A stretch of DNA of 25,226 nt, taken from the IMG/VR virus record IMGVR_UViG_3300025641_000040, positions 1-25,226 of that record; one strand, written 5' to 3'. The notes under the pieces are model-generated. The model saw only the letters and a list, made by a program, of their open reading frames with translations. It had not been told where the DNA came from and searched no databases. This stretch comes from a virus. Below are positions 8,655 to 25,014 of the stretch, piece after piece. Both the position numbers and the translations under genes were made by a program. How positions within the stretch are numbered: the first letter of the stretch is position 1; the number at the start of each line of letters is the position of its first letter.

Positions 8655-9098
8655 TTAGAAACAAATCCCTATAGATGTTACCAAACCTGTATCTGGGCCT
8701 GATATTGGTATTTCTATGGTAAATTTACCTGAACCTGTCCCATTAGAGTTAAATTGTCTTCTTCCTCCACCAAATAAAGGAGTAGTTCCAGCAGAATCTG
8801 AATAAACAATATCTCCTACAGCTGGGAAAGCACCACTACCATTATGGTAAAAAGTAGTATTAGAACTTGTAATAGTACAAGGATTTCTTGGAGAAGAAGT
8901 ATTACTAAGAAAAGACGTAAGAGCATTTTGCGATCCGTAATCTCTAAAGTTTAGTAACTGATTCTTACTTCCTTCGTATGTTGAATTAAAATAACTAGCA
9001 TTAGCATCATTAAAACAATCGTTTAAATCATCTGTTGTTGGGTTAACTTCTGTAACCACATCTTGTAACGTAAAAGTTGTAGTATTTGGAACACCCAT
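8655..9098 (-). CDS. Putative small virion appendage protein
   Basis: This 147-aa protein has an N-terminal half with GVPNTTTFTLQDVVTEVNPT, a helical DDLNDCFNDANASYFN segment and SKNQLLNFRDYG. The C-terminal half is Gly/Ser/Thr-rich beta (SGAFPAVGDIVYSDSAGTTP, GTGSGKFTIEIPISG), as in phage fibre or spike domains. Its ATG overlaps the stop of the S74 fibre gene by one base (TAATG), so it follows that fibre in the same transcript and is plausibly part of the same adsorption structure. No peptidase, lyase or carbohydrate-cleaving motif was seen. Function is inferred from composition and context. Confidence 0.6.
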   Translation of the reverse strand: MGVPNTTTFTLQDVVTEVNPTTDDLNDCFNDANASYFNSTYEGSKNQLLNFRDYGSQNALTSFLSNTSSPRNPCTITSSNTTFYHNGSGAFPAVGDIVYSDSAGTTPLFGGGRRQFNSNGTGSGKFTIEIPISGPDTGLVTSIGICF

Positions 9099-11869
9099 TA
9101 TATCCCTGCTTTTTCTAATCTTGCTTCTAATTCAGCAATTTTAGCTATTAATAAATCTATGTATTTAACTGTTTTATATCCTTCTGCATCATCCGCAACA
9201 AACTCAGGATGAGTTTTTTCTAATTCTTGAGCTATAACACCTGTTCTATATAAGCCCTTTTCTTCTTTCATTTCAAAAGACTTCCAAGCAACATCTATTT
9301 TATTAGGCGTTAATGTCTTTACTTTTGTTTTTAATCTTTCGTCAGAAGACAATATAAAGTTAGTTGCAGTAACTGTAGAAGTAAATCTACCTGTACCTGA
9401 TACGTCTAATTTATATCCTGGACTTGTATTTCCAATACCAACAGATGTATTGTTTGGGTTAACACTAAGCGTTTCTGAACCTCCTACAACTAAATCAATT
9501 CTACCATTTTCAGTAGTTATAAAGTTTTCAGCATCTAAACCGTCAACGTCTCCTAAGAAAAATGTACCATTAACAGAATCAACATCCATCATTCTGTCTC
9601 CAGAGTTTTGTATTAAAAAGTCAGGACGATTAACTAGTACTTGGTTATTGGTAACCTCTAGTCCTTCACTATTACCAGTAACAACTCTCCATTGGTCTAG
9701 TGCATGGAATTCCATGTATGTATCAGCATCTCCACTATGAGATATTTTTTGACCTATAATAACTTCATTACCAAATGATTTCGTTCCTCCAAAAAATTGA
9801 GTTCCTCCTGCTGTAACAATACCTGCCAACGCTCCAGTTGCAGGCTCTATATCACAGCTTGTTCCATCAGAAGAATGTATTCTGACAGCTCCAACAAAAT
9901 GTTGAGATGATAAGTCGGTATCAACATTGGGTGCTGAATTTGTTATAGTAACAGCTCCTGATGAACCTCCACCACTTAACCCTGTTCCTGCGGTTACCGA
10001 TGTTATATCCCCTGTATTACTTGTAAAACCAGCATCATTAAGAAATATACTTAAGCCAATTTCACCTGCAGCTTTTCTACGTTCTGCTCCACCATCTAGT
10101 ACTATAAACTCATCAGTAGTAAGCATAGCTGCTGTCATATCAACAAACTCAGATAAATCTAAACTTAATCCTGTTGCTGTTGCATCTAAACCAGCACCTA
10201 ATGTAATTTCAGTTAAATCTAATGTAACAGCAAATGTAGAGTTACCAGATTGATTAGCTGTAAATGTTGCTCCACCATCAAGACCTGTACTAGTAGTCAT
10301 TGTAAGCGTTCCGTTATTAACAGTAGGTAATGAACCAGATGTTATATATCCTGCTCCGTTTGTAATTGCATTATTGTTTAATGAAATATTAGCCGTACCA
10401 TCAAAAGAAACACCTGCAATAGTTCTAGCATTTAATAACTTAGTTGCACTTCCTGCATTACCTGTAATAGTTGTCTGTACAACATTATTTACAACTCCTA
10501 AGTTTGCTCTAGCTGCTGACGCTGTACTTGCTCCTGTTCCACCATTAGCAACTGATAAATCAGTACCTGACCAATCTGCATTGTTAATAGCTAAGTTACC
10601 TCCAAGTGTTAAGTTACCTGAACTTGTAACTGTACCTGTAAGAGTTAATCCATTTTGTGTACCTGTTCCACCAACGCTTGTTACTGTTCCTGATGTACTT
10701 GAAGTACCTGCACCTATTAAACTTCTAACCTCAGCTGCTGATATACCTGAATTTAAACTTGGTACAGTACCATTAGATAAAATTGCAGGAACACCTGTAT
10801 CACCAGTTACAGTACAGTTTAATGTAACACTACCTGACGTTCCTCCACCAGACATTCCTGTGCCAGCTACTACAGCTGTTATATCTCCTTGAGGTATGCT
10901 TGGAAAAGTTGTTAAATTACCTGCACCATTTACGTACTGAGAAGCAGTTCCTGCCATTGTAATACCAAGTGTACCTGATGTAGTTACTGCTGAACCTGTG
11001 TTAAATGCATTTCCTCCATGAGAAATTCCTACACTTGTTACAGTTCCTGTGTTTGTAGTATAACCTGCTCCGTTAGTTAATTGGTTATTATTTGTTGCTA
11101 TTGTAGTACTATTAAAAGCATTAGATCCAAATGTATATGCTTGGTTTGATGCACCTAATACACTATATGTAAGTGTATTACCTGATTTACTTATACCATT
11201 AAGATAAAAGTTATCATTATTATCATTTGGATTAAACGTAATAGTGTCTGTACTAGCATTAGTTGTAATGCTCATTCCTCCAGTTGCAACAAAAGTAAGT
11301 GTATCATTATTGTTATCTGCAACAACTGTTGATTGTCCACTAACCGCAATATTTTTAAATATACTTTGTGATGAACCTCTGTCAGAATTGGTAATTGTTA
11401 CAGTTCCAGATGTTCCACCACCACTAATACCTGTACCTGCTGTAACACCTGTTATATCCCCTACGTTAGAAGTCCAACCTGCGTTATTATTGAATATACT
11501 TAAAGGAATAGAAGAAATAAGTTGTTTATTACTTACTGTGCCATTTACTGCAACTAAGCTATCTGTACCAAGCAATGTTCCACCTGCACCTAATTCATTT
11601 AAGTCTAAAGTTAATCCTATTGTTTTATTAGCTGATTGATTAAGAGAAAATGATGTTGCTCCATCTAAACCTGTTCCTGTAGTTACAGTTACCGTAGCAT
11701 TACTTACAGTAGGTACACTATTATCAACATAATTTTTATTTGCTGCATCTGTTCCTGCTGAAACAGTATCTACACCTTGTATTCTACCTGTTCCGCCTAA
11801 AACTATATCACCACCAGAAACTGTTAAATCTCCACTAATTTCAGCGTTATTTATTAACTTAATTCCCAT
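9098..11869 (-). CDS. Tail fibre with C-terminal peptidase S74 intramolecular chaperone
   Basis: This 923-aa fibre protein has a Gly/Thr/Ser/Asn-rich body of low-complexity beta repeats. The module GDIT-x-V-x-AGTG-x-SGGG-x-SG occurs three times (GDITGVTAGTGISGGGTSG; GDITAVVAGTGMSGGGTSG; GDITSVTAGTGLSGGGSSG). The last 86 residues form a peptidase S74 domain: SSDERLK at 841-847, then YRTGVIAQELEKTHPEFV and a C-terminal helix (IDLLIAKIAELEARLEKAGI). The Ser842-Lys847 spacing matches the Ser-Lys dyad of the endosialidase family. These domains drive trimer folding, then cut themselves off. The mature fibre would therefore end near residue 841. One stretch (10881-10963) is shared with the neighbouring 828-aa fibre. 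Confidence 0.88.
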   Translation of the reverse strand: MGIKLINNAEISGDLTVSGGDIVLGGTGRIQGVDTVSAGTDAANKNYVDNSVPTVSNATVTVTTGTGLDGATSFSLNQSANKTIGLTLDLNELGAGGTLLGTDSLVAVNGTVSNKQLISSIPLSIFNNNAGWTSNVGDITGVTAGTGISGGGTSGTVTITNSDRGSSQSIFKNIAVSGQSTVVADNNNDTLTFVATGGMSITTNASTDTITFNPNDNNDNFYLNGISKSGNTLTYSVLGASNQAYTFGSNAFNSTTIATNNNQLTNGAGYTTNTGTVTSVGISHGGNAFNTGSAVTTSGTLGITMAGTASQYVNGAGNLTTFPSIPQGDITAVVAGTGMSGGGTSGSVTLNCTVTGDTGVPAILSNGTVPSLNSGISAAEVRSLIGAGTSSTSGTVTSVGGTGTQNGLTLTGTVTSSGNLTLGGNLAINNADWSGTDLSVANGGTGASTASAARANLGVVNNVVQTTITGNAGSATKLLNARTIAGVSFDGTANISLNNNAITNGAGYITSGSLPTVNNGTLTMTTSTGLDGGATFTANQSGNSTFAVTLDLTEITLGAGLDATATGLSLDLSEFVDMTAAMLTTDEFIVLDGGAERRKAAGEIGLSIFLNDAGFTSNTGDITSVTAGTGLSGGGSSGAVTITNSAPNVDTDLSSQHFVGAVRIHSSDGTSCDIEPATGALAGIVTAGGTQFFGGTKSFGNEVIIGQKISHSGDADTYMEFHALDQWRVVTGNSEGLEVTNNQVLVNRPDFLIQNSGDRMMDVDSVNGTFFLGDVDGLDAENFITTENGRIDLVVGGSETLSVNPNNTSVGIGNTSPGYKLDVSGTGRFTSTVTATNFILSSDERLKTKVKTLTPNKIDVAWKSFEMKEEKGLYRTGVIAQELEKTHPEFVADDAEGYKTVKYIDLLIAKIAELEARLEKAGI

Positions 11870-21995: not shown

Positions 21996-22442
21996 ATGAA
22001 AATTAGAACACCACACACACCTAAACATGATTATTTAAAGTATTGGAAAGTAGTAAGGCAATGGGCTAAAACCAAGTACGGCTTAGGTGTTGCTGAAATT
22101 GAAATGATTTTGTTCTTATATAGCGAAGGTTTTTTTAAACGAAAAGATTTTGAAGAATATATGGAAATAATGTCTTGGGACGCAAGACGCTTTGATCGAT
22201 TGCTTAAAGAAAAATGGATTGTTGTCTGGAGAGAAAGAAAAGGCAAAGAAGGTAAACTGTATGAAGTTGGCTATGCTGGGAAAAGAATGTGCCTTTCAAT
22301 TTATAAAAAGTTAAACATGGAAGAAACGGTATCAGAACACAGAAGAGCTAATCCTATATTCGACCCAAATGCGGATTATTCAAAAAAAGTTTATCGTAAA
22401 ATAATTAAAAAAATGAATCAAGAGATAAAAAAAAATCTGTAA
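21996..22442 (+). CDS. Putative winged-helix transcriptional regulator, sole plus-strand gene
   Basis: The fold of this 148-aa protein looks like a MarR-type winged helix at about residues 13-105: DYLKYWKVVRQWAKTKYGLG, then VAEIEMILFLYSEGFFKRKD (helices 2-3), FEEYMEIMSWDARRFDRLLK (recognition region), EKWIVVWRERKGKEGKLYEV (beta wing) and GYAGKRMCLSIYKKLN. The C-terminal ~45 residues are basic (VYRKIIKKMNQEIKKNL). As the only plus-strand gene, flanked by a promoter region with an inverted repeat on one side and a terminator on the other, it is a good candidate for the phage's own switch for late or small-gene transcription. It probably binds DNA as a dimer; target unknown. Confidence 0.75.
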   Translation: MKIRTPHTPKHDYLKYWKVVRQWAKTKYGLGVAEIEMILFLYSEGFFKRKDFEEYMEIMSWDARRFDRLLKEKWIVVWRERKGKEGKLYEVGYAGKRMCLSIYKKLNMEETVSEHRRANPIFDPNADYSKKVYRKIIKKMNQEIKKNL

Positions 22443-22489: not shown

Positions 22490-22747
22490 TTACAATACTA
22501 CTACAATATCTCTCTCAGATATAATTGTAACCATTTCTTCATTTAACATCATTTTGTGACCTGCGTTCTTATCATAGAATACAAGGTCATCTTTTTTAAC
22601 AACACTTACATCTGTACCTGGAACAACTATAATTCCTTTTTTGTATCTTAGTTGATTGCTATCGTCTGAAGTTAGTAATATTCCTGACTCAGTTTTGTGC
22701 TGTTCAATTATTTCTGTAATTACAATGTACTTACCTACTGCTTTCAT
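22490..22747 (-). CDS. groES: Co-chaperonin GroES (Cpn10), short phage form
   Basis: This 85-aa GroES, taken from the ATG at 22745-22747 (MKAVGKYIVITEIIEQ), would cap the phage GroEL or host GroEL. The mobile loop is TESGILLTSDDSN (19-31), with the hydrophobic tripeptide Ile23-Leu24-Leu25 that docks on GroEL. It then has YKKGIIVVPG, KKDDLVFYDKNAGHKMMLNE and a C-terminal strand SERDIVVVL. The roof hairpin present in E. coli GroES between the VxxxG and KxGD segments is missing, as in T4 gp31, so the dome may be open at the top. A longer form starting at a GTG (22787-22789, overlapping the previous stop as GTGA) would add 14 residues (MINKEWLWMQKLNN) and cannot be excluded. It is the last gene before the shared terminator. 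Confidence 0.9.
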   Translation of the reverse strand: MKAVGKYIVITEIIEQHKTESGILLTSDDSNQLRYKKGIIVVPGTDVSVVKKDDLVFYDKNAGHKMMLNEEMVTIISERDIVVVL

Positions 22748-22785
22748 ATTATTTAATTTTTGCATCCATAACCACTCTTTGTTAA

Positions 22786-22932
22786 TCACTTTAAATTTTC
22801 CATTAAAATTTTTTTAACATTTAAGTAAACTGAATTTGCAGATTGAACAGAGATTTCTCCTTCTTTAAATAATTTTCCTGCAAAACTGTCTGCTATTTTA
22901 TCAGCTCTTCTTTCTATTAATACATTTTCCAT
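22786..22932 (-). CDS. Small unknown protein between groEL and groES (48 aa)
   Basis: The translation is MENVLIERRADKIADSFAGK, LFKEGEISVQSANSVYLNVK and KILMENLK, mostly helical and amphipathic. It starts two bases after the GroEL stop, and its own stop overlaps a GTG that could begin groES (GTGA), so it is part of the same translated unit. Cellular groE operons do not have a gene between groEL and groES; this insertion may supply a chaperonin partner or be unrelated. No family was recognised. Confidence 0.6.
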   Translation of the reverse strand: MENVLIERRADKIADSFAGKLFKEGEISVQSANSVYLNVKKILMENLK

Positions 22933-22934
22933 AT

Positions 22935-24506
22935 TTATTTTCTTTTCATTGTTACTATTGCGTTTGTACTTAATATTGTTGTCGCTACACTTACTGCATT
23001 CTTTAATGCATTCTTTGTAACCTTAGCAGGATCTATAACACCCATCTTATACATATCCCCAAACACTTTGTTTTGAACATCATATCCAAAATTGTAAGGA
23101 ACACTTGCACAAGAACATATCCTGTCTCTTATTTCTTTTATGTTTTCACCTGCATTAGTAAGTATTTGTTCTAATGGTGATATCAAAGCTCCATACATAA
23201 CATCATTAGCATTCCCATCCGCTAACAGTTCAGCACAACGCAACAAAGCTAACCCTCCGCCTGGAAGTATCCCTTCCTCAATCGCAGACTTAACAGCACA
23301 TACCGAATCCTCTACTCGATCATATTTTTCTTTCTGCTCTATATCAGAATCAGCTCCTACATAAATTATTCCTACAGCTCCAGATAATAAAGCAATTCTT
23401 TCAGAAATAAAATCTCTTTCTCTTTTGTCTGAATTGTTTTCCTTCTGAACCTTTAATTCTTCAATTCTAGTTACAGCCTCTTTACTACTCGAATCATTAT
23501 TCATAATTACTGTAGAATTCTGACCTACAATAATTTTGTCTGCATGACCTAAGTCCTCCATAGACAACATCCCAATATTATCTCCCTGTGACTCGCTGAA
23601 ATATTTTGCCCCTATAGCCAACGCAATATCACTCATCAATTCATTTGTCTTGTATCCAAAAGATGGAGGAATAATATTGCATAGCTTTAGGTTATTTTGA
23701 ATAACATTCGCTGCTAAAGTATTTGTTACATTACCTGAACAATTTCCTATAATTAAAAGCTTCTTGTTTTGATTTATTATTGGCTTTAATATATTTTCAA
23801 TCTGAAGTATATTAGTAATCTCCATGTCTGTCATTAAAACATAAACATCATCTAAAATACATTCATCGTTTCTGTGATTATTAATAAACAGCTTTGAAGA
23901 ATATCCCCTGTCAATCTTAATTCCTTTAGTTACCTCGTAGTATGTTTTGTCTGTCTTGCTGTTCTCAACCGTAAGTACTCCGTCTTTACCTAATTCCTTA
24001 TAAGCACTAGCAATCATTTTTCCTATTACATTATCATTGTTAGCAGAAATACTAGCAACATGCTGTAACGTTTTACCTGTAACTTTTTTTGAAGATAAAT
24101 CTAACTCCTTGATTACATTATCAGAAACAACTTTAATATCTCTAATTAACTGTGTAGTGTTAATCTCTGGATTACGCTGTATTAATCGCATACCCTCTTT
24201 TACAATAGCCTCAGTTAATACAATCGCAGTTGTTGTTCCATCTCCTGCAGAAGTAGCAGTTCTATCAGCAGCCTCCTTCATCATAGTAATCGCCAAGTTC
24301 TCTACAGCGTCCTCTAAGTCAATCGACTTAGCAACCGTAACCCCATCCTTAGTAATGGTAATTCCTCCTGTATGATTCTGTGATTCAATTAGTACTGTCT
24401 TGCCAAGTGGCCCTAATGTACTTTTTACTGCTCTGGAAATTGTAGTGATTCCGCTTAATAATTTGTCTCTCCCCTCCTGATCGAAGGATAATTCTTTTGG
24501 ATTCAT
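22935..24506 (-). CDS. groEL: Chaperonin GroEL, divergent phage form
   Basis: This 523-aa chaperonin subunit has all domains in order. ATP site: TLGPLGKTVLIES, Asp54 (TKDGVTVA), Asp89 (AGDGTTTA) and Asp400 (RVED), matching E. coli Asp52, Asp87 and Asp398. The apical domain has helix H (LQIENILKPIINQ) and helix I (GNVTNTLAANVIQNNLK) for substrate and GroES binding. The hinge GILPGGGLALLR is present. The C-terminus ends TMKRK without the Gly-Gly-Met tail. Most striking, the inter-ring segment SPLEQILTNAGENIKE aligns without gaps to E. coli APLRQIVLNCGEEPSV: positions 452, 461, 463 and 464 (R, E, S, V) are here Glu446, Asn455, Lys457 and Glu458. The region matching the other inter-ring contact (E. 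coli Ala109) also differs, with two extra residues. It therefore may not form the standard double ring. Confidence 0.96.
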   Translation of the reverse strand: MNPKELSFDQEGRDKLLSGITTISRAVKSTLGPLGKTVLIESQNHTGGITITKDGVTVAKSIDLEDAVENLAITMMKEAADRTATSAGDGTTTAIVLTEAIVKEGMRLIQRNPEINTTQLIRDIKVVSDNVIKELDLSSKKVTGKTLQHVASISANNDNVIGKMIASAYKELGKDGVLTVENSKTDKTYYEVTKGIKIDRGYSSKLFINNHRNDECILDDVYVLMTDMEITNILQIENILKPIINQNKKLLIIGNCSGNVTNTLAANVIQNNLKLCNIIPPSFGYKTNELMSDIALAIGAKYFSESQGDNIGMLSMEDLGHADKIIVGQNSTVIMNNDSSSKEAVTRIEELKVQKENNSDKRERDFISERIALLSGAVGIIYVGADSDIEQKEKYDRVEDSVCAVKSAIEEGILPGGGLALLRCAELLADGNANDVMYGALISPLEQILTNAGENIKEIRDRICSCASVPYNFGYDVQNKVFGDMYKMGVIDPAKVTKNALKNAVSVATTILSTNAIVTMKRK

Positions 24507-24529
24507 ATTTTCATTTAATTAGATTATTG

Positions 24530-24537
24530 CAAATATA
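24530..24537 (-). promoter_or_regulatory. Bacteroidota-type -7 box (TATATTTG) for groEL
   Basis: The minus strand reads ATTGTATATTTG 24 bases before the groEL ATG. An ATCGACA element (24561-24567) lies about 23 bases upstream, around the -33 region, so a protein bound there could control the operon. Confidence 0.6.
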
Positions 24538-24554
24538 CAATAATAATATAACAT

Positions 24555-24732
24555 GTCGTATGTCGATTTTATTTTTCCCTATATATATATAGTGTTTTAT
24601 ATTAATATATATTTTCTTTTCCCTGTTAAGTTAGTAAAAAATCGACATAATCGACACAAAGTTAATTAAACCCAATGACAGTAAGAGTTTAACGAAAGTC
24701 AAAATCGACACGAAATCGACATAAAATCGACA
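24555..24732. repeat. ATCGACA repeat array with AT-rich block (regulatory or origin candidate)
   Basis: The 301-base gap 24507-24807 has no gene. It contains five plus-strand copies of ATCGACA at 24641, 24650, 24704, 24715 and 24726. The last three are spaced 11 bases, about one helical turn, and the first two are spaced 9. One inverted copy, TGTCGAT, is at 24561, with a partial copy (TGTCGTA) just before it. An AT-rich block with (TA)n lies at about 24580-24615 between the copies. The even spacing suggests a protein bound on one face of DNA: a repressor or activator for groEL, or an iteron-type origin beside an unwinding element. Confidence 0.7.
24657..24664 (-). promoter_or_regulatory. Second -7 box (TAACTTTG) inside the ATCGACA array
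   Basis: The minus strand reads TAACTTTG directly followed by TGTCGATTATGTCGAT, so two repeat copies fall on the expected transcription start. This would be an ideal repressor operator. It could give a longer-leader groEL transcript. Confidence 0.4.
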
Positions 24733-24741
24733 TATTACCAC

Positions 24742-24774
24742 AAAAAAAAAGGGCAAACATAAGTTATACCCTTT
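24742..24774 (-). terminator. Rho-independent terminator of the two right-end genes
   Basis: On the minus strand AAAGGG and CCCTTT (six pairs, 15-base loop) are followed by a run of T extending to 24742. It lies about 33 bases after the stop of the 68-aa gene. Confidence 0.72.
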
Positions 24775-24807
24775 CTCCTGAGAAACACAAATCTAATTGT
24801 GGGAAAA

Positions 24808-25014
24808 TTATTTATATATACTGAAGAAATTTTTCTTAGCCTCAGCTAATTCAATTCCATCTGCAATCATACTAATCTTCTTAGCACGATGTTTAGCATT
24901 TTTAAAACTTGCTAGTTTTTTAATACCCATTTCGTAATAGTCACCATGCCCATCAAGCTCATGCTTGTTACGACTCGACATATACTCTTTCATTATTGGT
25001 CTTTTACTATCCAT
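24808..25014 (-). CDS. Hypothetical basic protein (68 aa)
   Basis: This 68-aa basic, helical protein has KRPIMKEYMSSRNKHELDGH, then GDYYEMGIKKLASFKNAKHR and AKKISMIADGIELAEAKKNF. No membrane segment or metal motif is clear. It begins one base after the stop of the 48-aa gene and is followed by a terminator, so the two form a short operon. I recognise no family; position just upstream of the repeat array makes a DNA-linked role possible but unproved. Confidence 0.68.
   Translation of the reverse strand: MDSKRPIMKEYMSSRNKHELDGHGDYYEMGIKKLASFKNAKHRAKKISMIADGIELAEAKKNFFSIYK

Follow-up and report, generated by a model that had tools for sequence, protein, structure and literature searches.

An iteron array upstream of a phage groEL gene as a probable replication origin, with repeats that co-vary with the winged helix of the phage primase-helicase

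The repeat array upstream of groEL in this phage is probably a theta-type replication origin whose iterons would be recognized by the winged helix at the C-terminus of the phage-encoded primase-helicase. Comparison of related sequences leads us to place the probability of this reading at about 0.82. The initial annotation had left a choice between an iteron-type origin and an operator through which a phage regulator controls groEL; the comparative evidence favors the former and disfavors the latter. The array, its conserved anatomy, and the joint variation of its repeat word with the winged helix are seen directly in the genomes.

The window, meaning the whole 25,226-bp stretch of viral DNA that was analyzed, is a fragment of a phage of ~61 kb. 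A 62,289-bp contig (G001) matches it at 99.6-99.7%, and the first bases of this contig recur near its far end, indicating a circular map of ~61 kb. The sole sizeable break in the 99.7% match, at window positions 10729-11044, falls within a repetitive fibre-like gene (9098-11869) and suggests a variable region. The early genes, which encode an SNF2-type helicase, an 810-aa primase-helicase, a Sak annealing protein, and two small DnaA-domain-IV-like proteins, lie on one strand, with the late genes on the other. In bacterial genome bins, relatives of the primase-helicase are found mainly in Bacteroidota, with several of the closest in bins labelled otherwise. This distribution and the TAnnTTTG box of the groEL promoter make a marine Bacteroidota the most likely host. 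GC skew in a 62-kb relative changes sign 1-2 kb from the array; since the coding strand also switches there, the skew is not independent evidence for an origin and was dropped as confounded by gene orientation.

The array is contained in a 301-bp non-coding stretch (24507-24807) between a 68-aa gene and groEL. This stretch had been described as the only large one of its kind; it is indeed the largest in the window, although other gaps of more than 200 bp exist. The locus comprises the following features, in window coordinates.

22490..22789, minus strand: groES-like co-chaperonin gene.
22935..24506, minus strand: groEL, which follows the array in most relatives.
24530..24537, minus strand: groEL promoter -7 box TATATTTG, of the Bacteroidota type TAnnTTTG, found in relatives at about -28 to -54 from the ATG.
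24553..24567, plus strand: inverted iteron pair, ATGTCGT + TGTCGAT, at the -33 region of the groEL promoter.
24568..24640, no strand: AT-rich block (84% AT), a putative DNA unwinding element.
24641..24656, minus strand: inner iteron pair, two TGTCGAT copies at 9-bp spacing, which is kept in many relatives.
24657..24703, no strand: spacer element between the iteron groups, delimited by inspection of upstream regions.
24704..24732, minus strand: outer iteron group, three TGTCGAT copies (read on the groEL strand) at exact 11-bp spacing; 10-11 bp is kept in relatives with other words.
24742..24774, minus strand: terminator-like hairpin followed by nine T residues, which ends the upstream 68-aa gene and bounds the array; same place in relatives.
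24808..25014, minus strand: 68-aa gene, beside the array in many relatives.

A consensus scan returned no call for the hairpin. Of the two candidate -7 boxes that the array had been thought to overlap, TATATTTG is conserved and lies outside it, whereas TAACTTTG (24657-24664) is not conserved.

A motif count in the window places ATCGACA on the plus strand at 24641, 24650, 24704, 24715, and 24726, and on the minus strand at 24561-24567, so that all five direct copies and the inverted one are where the initial annotation had put them. The 11-bp spacing it reported for three copies is exact for the last three, and the AT-rich block it described within the array is likewise present. A degenerate seventh copy, ATGTCGT (24553-24559), adjoins the inverted one. 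The six exact copies fall inside 172 bp, and none occurs elsewhere in the window, for which 0.94 copies are expected; at least six copies were obtained in 0 of 100 shuffles. When clustering was examined for 7-mers with at least three G/C over a 175-bp span, no 7-mer reached more than four copies in 200 order-2 Markov sequences of window length, against six in the window. Several phased direct repeats stand beside an AT-rich region, an arrangement expected of an iteron-type origin.

The comparison set consisted of groEL-linked loci from viral contigs, with upstream regions read from the groEL ATG. The array persists in close relatives that have this operon; its absence there would have spoken against it. 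A shared anatomy recurs in many of the loci: three to four repeats at 10-11 bp spacing, a spacer, two repeats at 9-bp spacing, an AT-rich block, one or two inverted copies, and finally the TAnnTTTG box. In relatives, 53-54 bp separate the group of three to four repeats from the 9-bp pair. The 10-11 bp spacing is constant in several word classes, and the longer distances are more variable. Spacer counterparts in relatives approximate TAACTTATTGATTATTAATA, a sequence kept across word classes and weakly so in the window phage; this element stays similar as the iteron word changes, and an inverted version of it occurs at helicase-site arrays. A blind scan for three phased copies, carried out before the proteins compared here came into view, returned 28 stretches, seven of them with exact 11+11 spacing, and four of these seven hold the family's groEL or helicase.

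Within this fixed framework the repeat word itself differs among relatives. Nearly all copies in a genome are alike, and all copies in an array change together. By the classes, which were assigned by eye from the arrays, the word is TGTCGAT in the window's group (including G001), ATGCTTA or ATGCTGA in G006/G010, ATTCCG in G014, TGTCGCG in G037, ATTCCAA in G035/G038, TGTTAA in G046, and TGACG in G016-G018/G045.

Across 22 genomes, the only domain whose sequence clearly tracks the word is the winged helix of the primase-helicase. The sharpest case is the pair G014/G037, with identities of 98% in the helicase body, 70% in the winged helix, and 56% in the recognition stretch. GroEL is 98% identical in this pair, and the arrays read ATTCCG versus TGTCGCG within otherwise nearly identical flanks. 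Similarly, G015/G043 and G046 share 88% of the body and 49-51% of the winged helix, with TGTCGAT versus TGTTAA, and the G001 group and G006 share ~85% and ~45%, with TGTCGAT versus ATGCTNA. In 17 same-word pairs with body identities of 85-99%, the winged helix averages 85.5% identity and never falls below 75%. In a partial Mantel test over the 22 genomes that took body distance into account, the winged helix scores r = 0.45 (p = 0.0005); SNF2, the exonuclease, Sak, both DnaA-domain-IV-like proteins (A and B), and GroEL are not significant in the same set. On the helicase body tree the words require eight changes, and the switches are nested in supported clades.

The co-variation extends to individual residues. 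Among ~100 loci, recognition residues SRT accompany nnACA-type words (CGACA/CAACA), SNI accompanies AGCAT, and SRI accompanies GGAAT. The pairing is not one-to-one, as CGACA and CAACA words both occur with SRT, and G006 and G010 have a common word and common SNI-FN residues, yet only 46% winged-helix identity. Upstream of the helicase gene, the AGCAT and GGAAT classes have just two to three copies, which leaves their automatic core z-scores too weak; the association of residues with words rests on inspection together with the groEL arrays.

The primase-helicase (~810 aa) is encoded in the early region, outside the window and ~7.7 kb from the main array. Profile matches above the cut-off identify BT4734-like_N (PF08800), PriCT_1 (PF08708), and SF3/DUF5906 (PF19263), indicating a primase region fused to a helicase. 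The SF3 part, modeled with modest confidence (pLDDT 67.6), matches the folds of papillomavirus E1, the SaPI5 primase-helicase (7ola), the NrS-1 CTR, and AAV Rep40. In an AlphaFold (AF2) model, the last ~100 residues form a winged helix (pLDDT 88), and the predicted recognition helix begins with the variable S-R-T-x-F. This domain aligns with the P4 origin-binding domain (1ka8_A) at a Z of 5.3, a score tied with those of many unrelated winged helices. A Foldseek query consisting of just the winged helix returned no match with an E-value below 0.001, and comparison of the helicase profile with the sequences of solved structures gave nothing meaningful.

Many of these phages carry a second, shorter element upstream of the primase-helicase gene, consisting of a repeat pair, an AT-rich block, and an inverted repeat that touches the ATG. 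In most genomes with such a site, this element uses that genome's own word; it is absent from G014, G037, G012, G011, and G019. The word is not spread evenly over the genome, a distribution that would have counted against the array: 62 kb contain eight copies, six of them in the array and one at the helicase start codon. The array is not tied to groEL either. G020 has a full array at the helicase start and none at groEL, G013 has one of the same anatomy before another small gene, away from groEL, and the array-like clusters of G013, G011, and G019 do not immediately precede groEL, which indicates that the element is mobile relative to this gene. G019 contains two array-like clusters with similar words (TGTTGAA/TGTTGG) 6 kb apart, at L152:9562-9767 and L152:15595-15786 (G019 29562-29767 and 35595-35786), perhaps two origins.

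These arrangements bear on the strongest alternative, that the sites are purely regulatory: replication would start elsewhere, and the repeats would serve to control the groEL promoter and the helicase gene through the winged helix of the helicase or a different phage protein. Two sites speak for such an operator: the inverted pair lies at the -33 region of the groEL promoter, and one site overlaps the helicase start codon. However, most repeats are located 140-230 bp upstream of the groEL start, beyond the AT-rich block, and the array of G020 stands at the helicase gene rather than at groEL, just as the clusters of G013, G011, and G019 are displaced. An operator specific to groEL should be linked to its promoter in every genome with an array, and G020 and G013 show no such link. 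The word co-varies with a domain of the helicase rather than with a known repressor. We consider this explanation unlikely, though it is the most credible of the alternatives.

The window also encodes a winged-helix-like protein (21996-22442, phrog_17028) on the strand opposite to groEL, in a gene present in nearly all relatives. An operator read by this protein is very improbable: the gene sits beside groES in nearly all relatives and shows a weak association with the word (partial Mantel r = 0.19, p = 0.04, 22 genomes), but G046 and G015/G043, with different words, have 91-95% identity in this protein, and G001 and G003, with a common word, just 71%. Its proposed role as regulator of the array is therefore disfavored.

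The two small stand-alone DnaA-domain-IV-like proteins of the early region, encoded at L126:15974-16336 and L127:4206-4511, both on the minus strand (Bac_DnaA_C E-values 1.5e-13 and 0.0028), occur in many relatives. That the array is a DnaA-box-like origin bound by A or B has scant probability, despite their Bac_DnaA_C similarity and their position in the replication region, since B is 100% identical in G014 and G037 in spite of the different words, A diverges strongly among same-word phages, and neither correlates with the word across genomes (A, r = 0.07; B, r = -0.04). The word does not move with these proteins, and as its readers A and B were set aside on the identity of B in G014/G037 and the absent correlation.

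If the array is an origin recognized by the primase-helicase, helicase monomers would bind the iteron groups on either side of the AT-rich block, with the 10-11 bp phasing aligning three or four monomers along the same side of the helix. Two rings could then form and melt the block, after which the fused primase would start synthesis. The same helicase may also tune expression of groEL and of its own gene, because the inverted pair covers the -33 region and a half-size element lies at the helicase gene start. Binding, melting, priming, origin activity, and groEL regulation are all proposed here from sequence comparison and models. A broader and more tentative idea is that a single protein couples replication to chaperonin supply, by way of a movable origin in the groEL promoter region whose sites also switch groEL and the helicase gene. 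Sister phages might then escape each other, or satellites, through joint swaps of the winged helix and all iterons, creating origin incompatibility types in one lineage.

The results point to an origin, its probable initiator, and a specificity code between them. Swap pairs such as G014/G037 and G015/G043/G046 suggest that the protein-DNA recognition code of an SF3 initiator can be read from genomes, and they open origin specificity and exclusion among related phages to direct testing. Phage contigs could also be assigned to a replication type by their iteron words. In searches of the open-access literature, we found no description of an origin in these uncultured marine Bacteroidota phages, which form a large group.

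Several known systems resemble the one proposed here. Phage P4 has two repeat regions, ori and crr. Like P4 alpha, the enzyme described here is a primase-helicase with a winged helix, and in many of these phages the repeats lie in two regions. P4 alpha is itself a primase-helicase fusion, with a TOPRIM-type primase and a winged-helix origin-binding domain that binds the origin repeats (PMC4234260). Unlike P4 alpha, the phage protein has a BT4734-like/PriCT_1 N-terminus, the main array precedes groEL, and the word varies from phage to phage with the winged helix. ORF904 of pRN1 combines primase, SF3 helicase, and winged helix in the same domain order as the phage helicase (PMC4234260). The pRN1 origin is a stem-loop without iterons, in contrast to the phage array.

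In SaPIs, iterons reportedly flank an AT-rich stretch on both sides, a finding attributed to Ubeda et al. in 2007. The SaPI Rep proteins (the SaPI5 primase-helicase and SaPIbov1 Rep) and SCCmec Cch2 are self-loading helicases, in which the C-terminal domain recognizes short iterons at the cognate origin (PMC7581432). The phage system is similar in that iterons surround an AT-rich block and the fold search matches the SaPI5 enzyme. However, a SaPI origin immediately follows rep, whereas in the present case ~7.7 kb separate the main array from the helicase gene, and a half-size copy stands at the start of that gene. SaPIs are satellites, while the present elements are ~60-kb phages of Bacteroidota. 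Finally, iteron plasmids and lambda O/ori also combine an AT-rich unwinding region with adjacent direct repeats in phase, and their initiators are specific for the cognate repeats. The initiators of those systems lack a helicase, whereas initiator, helicase, and primase appear here to be one protein.
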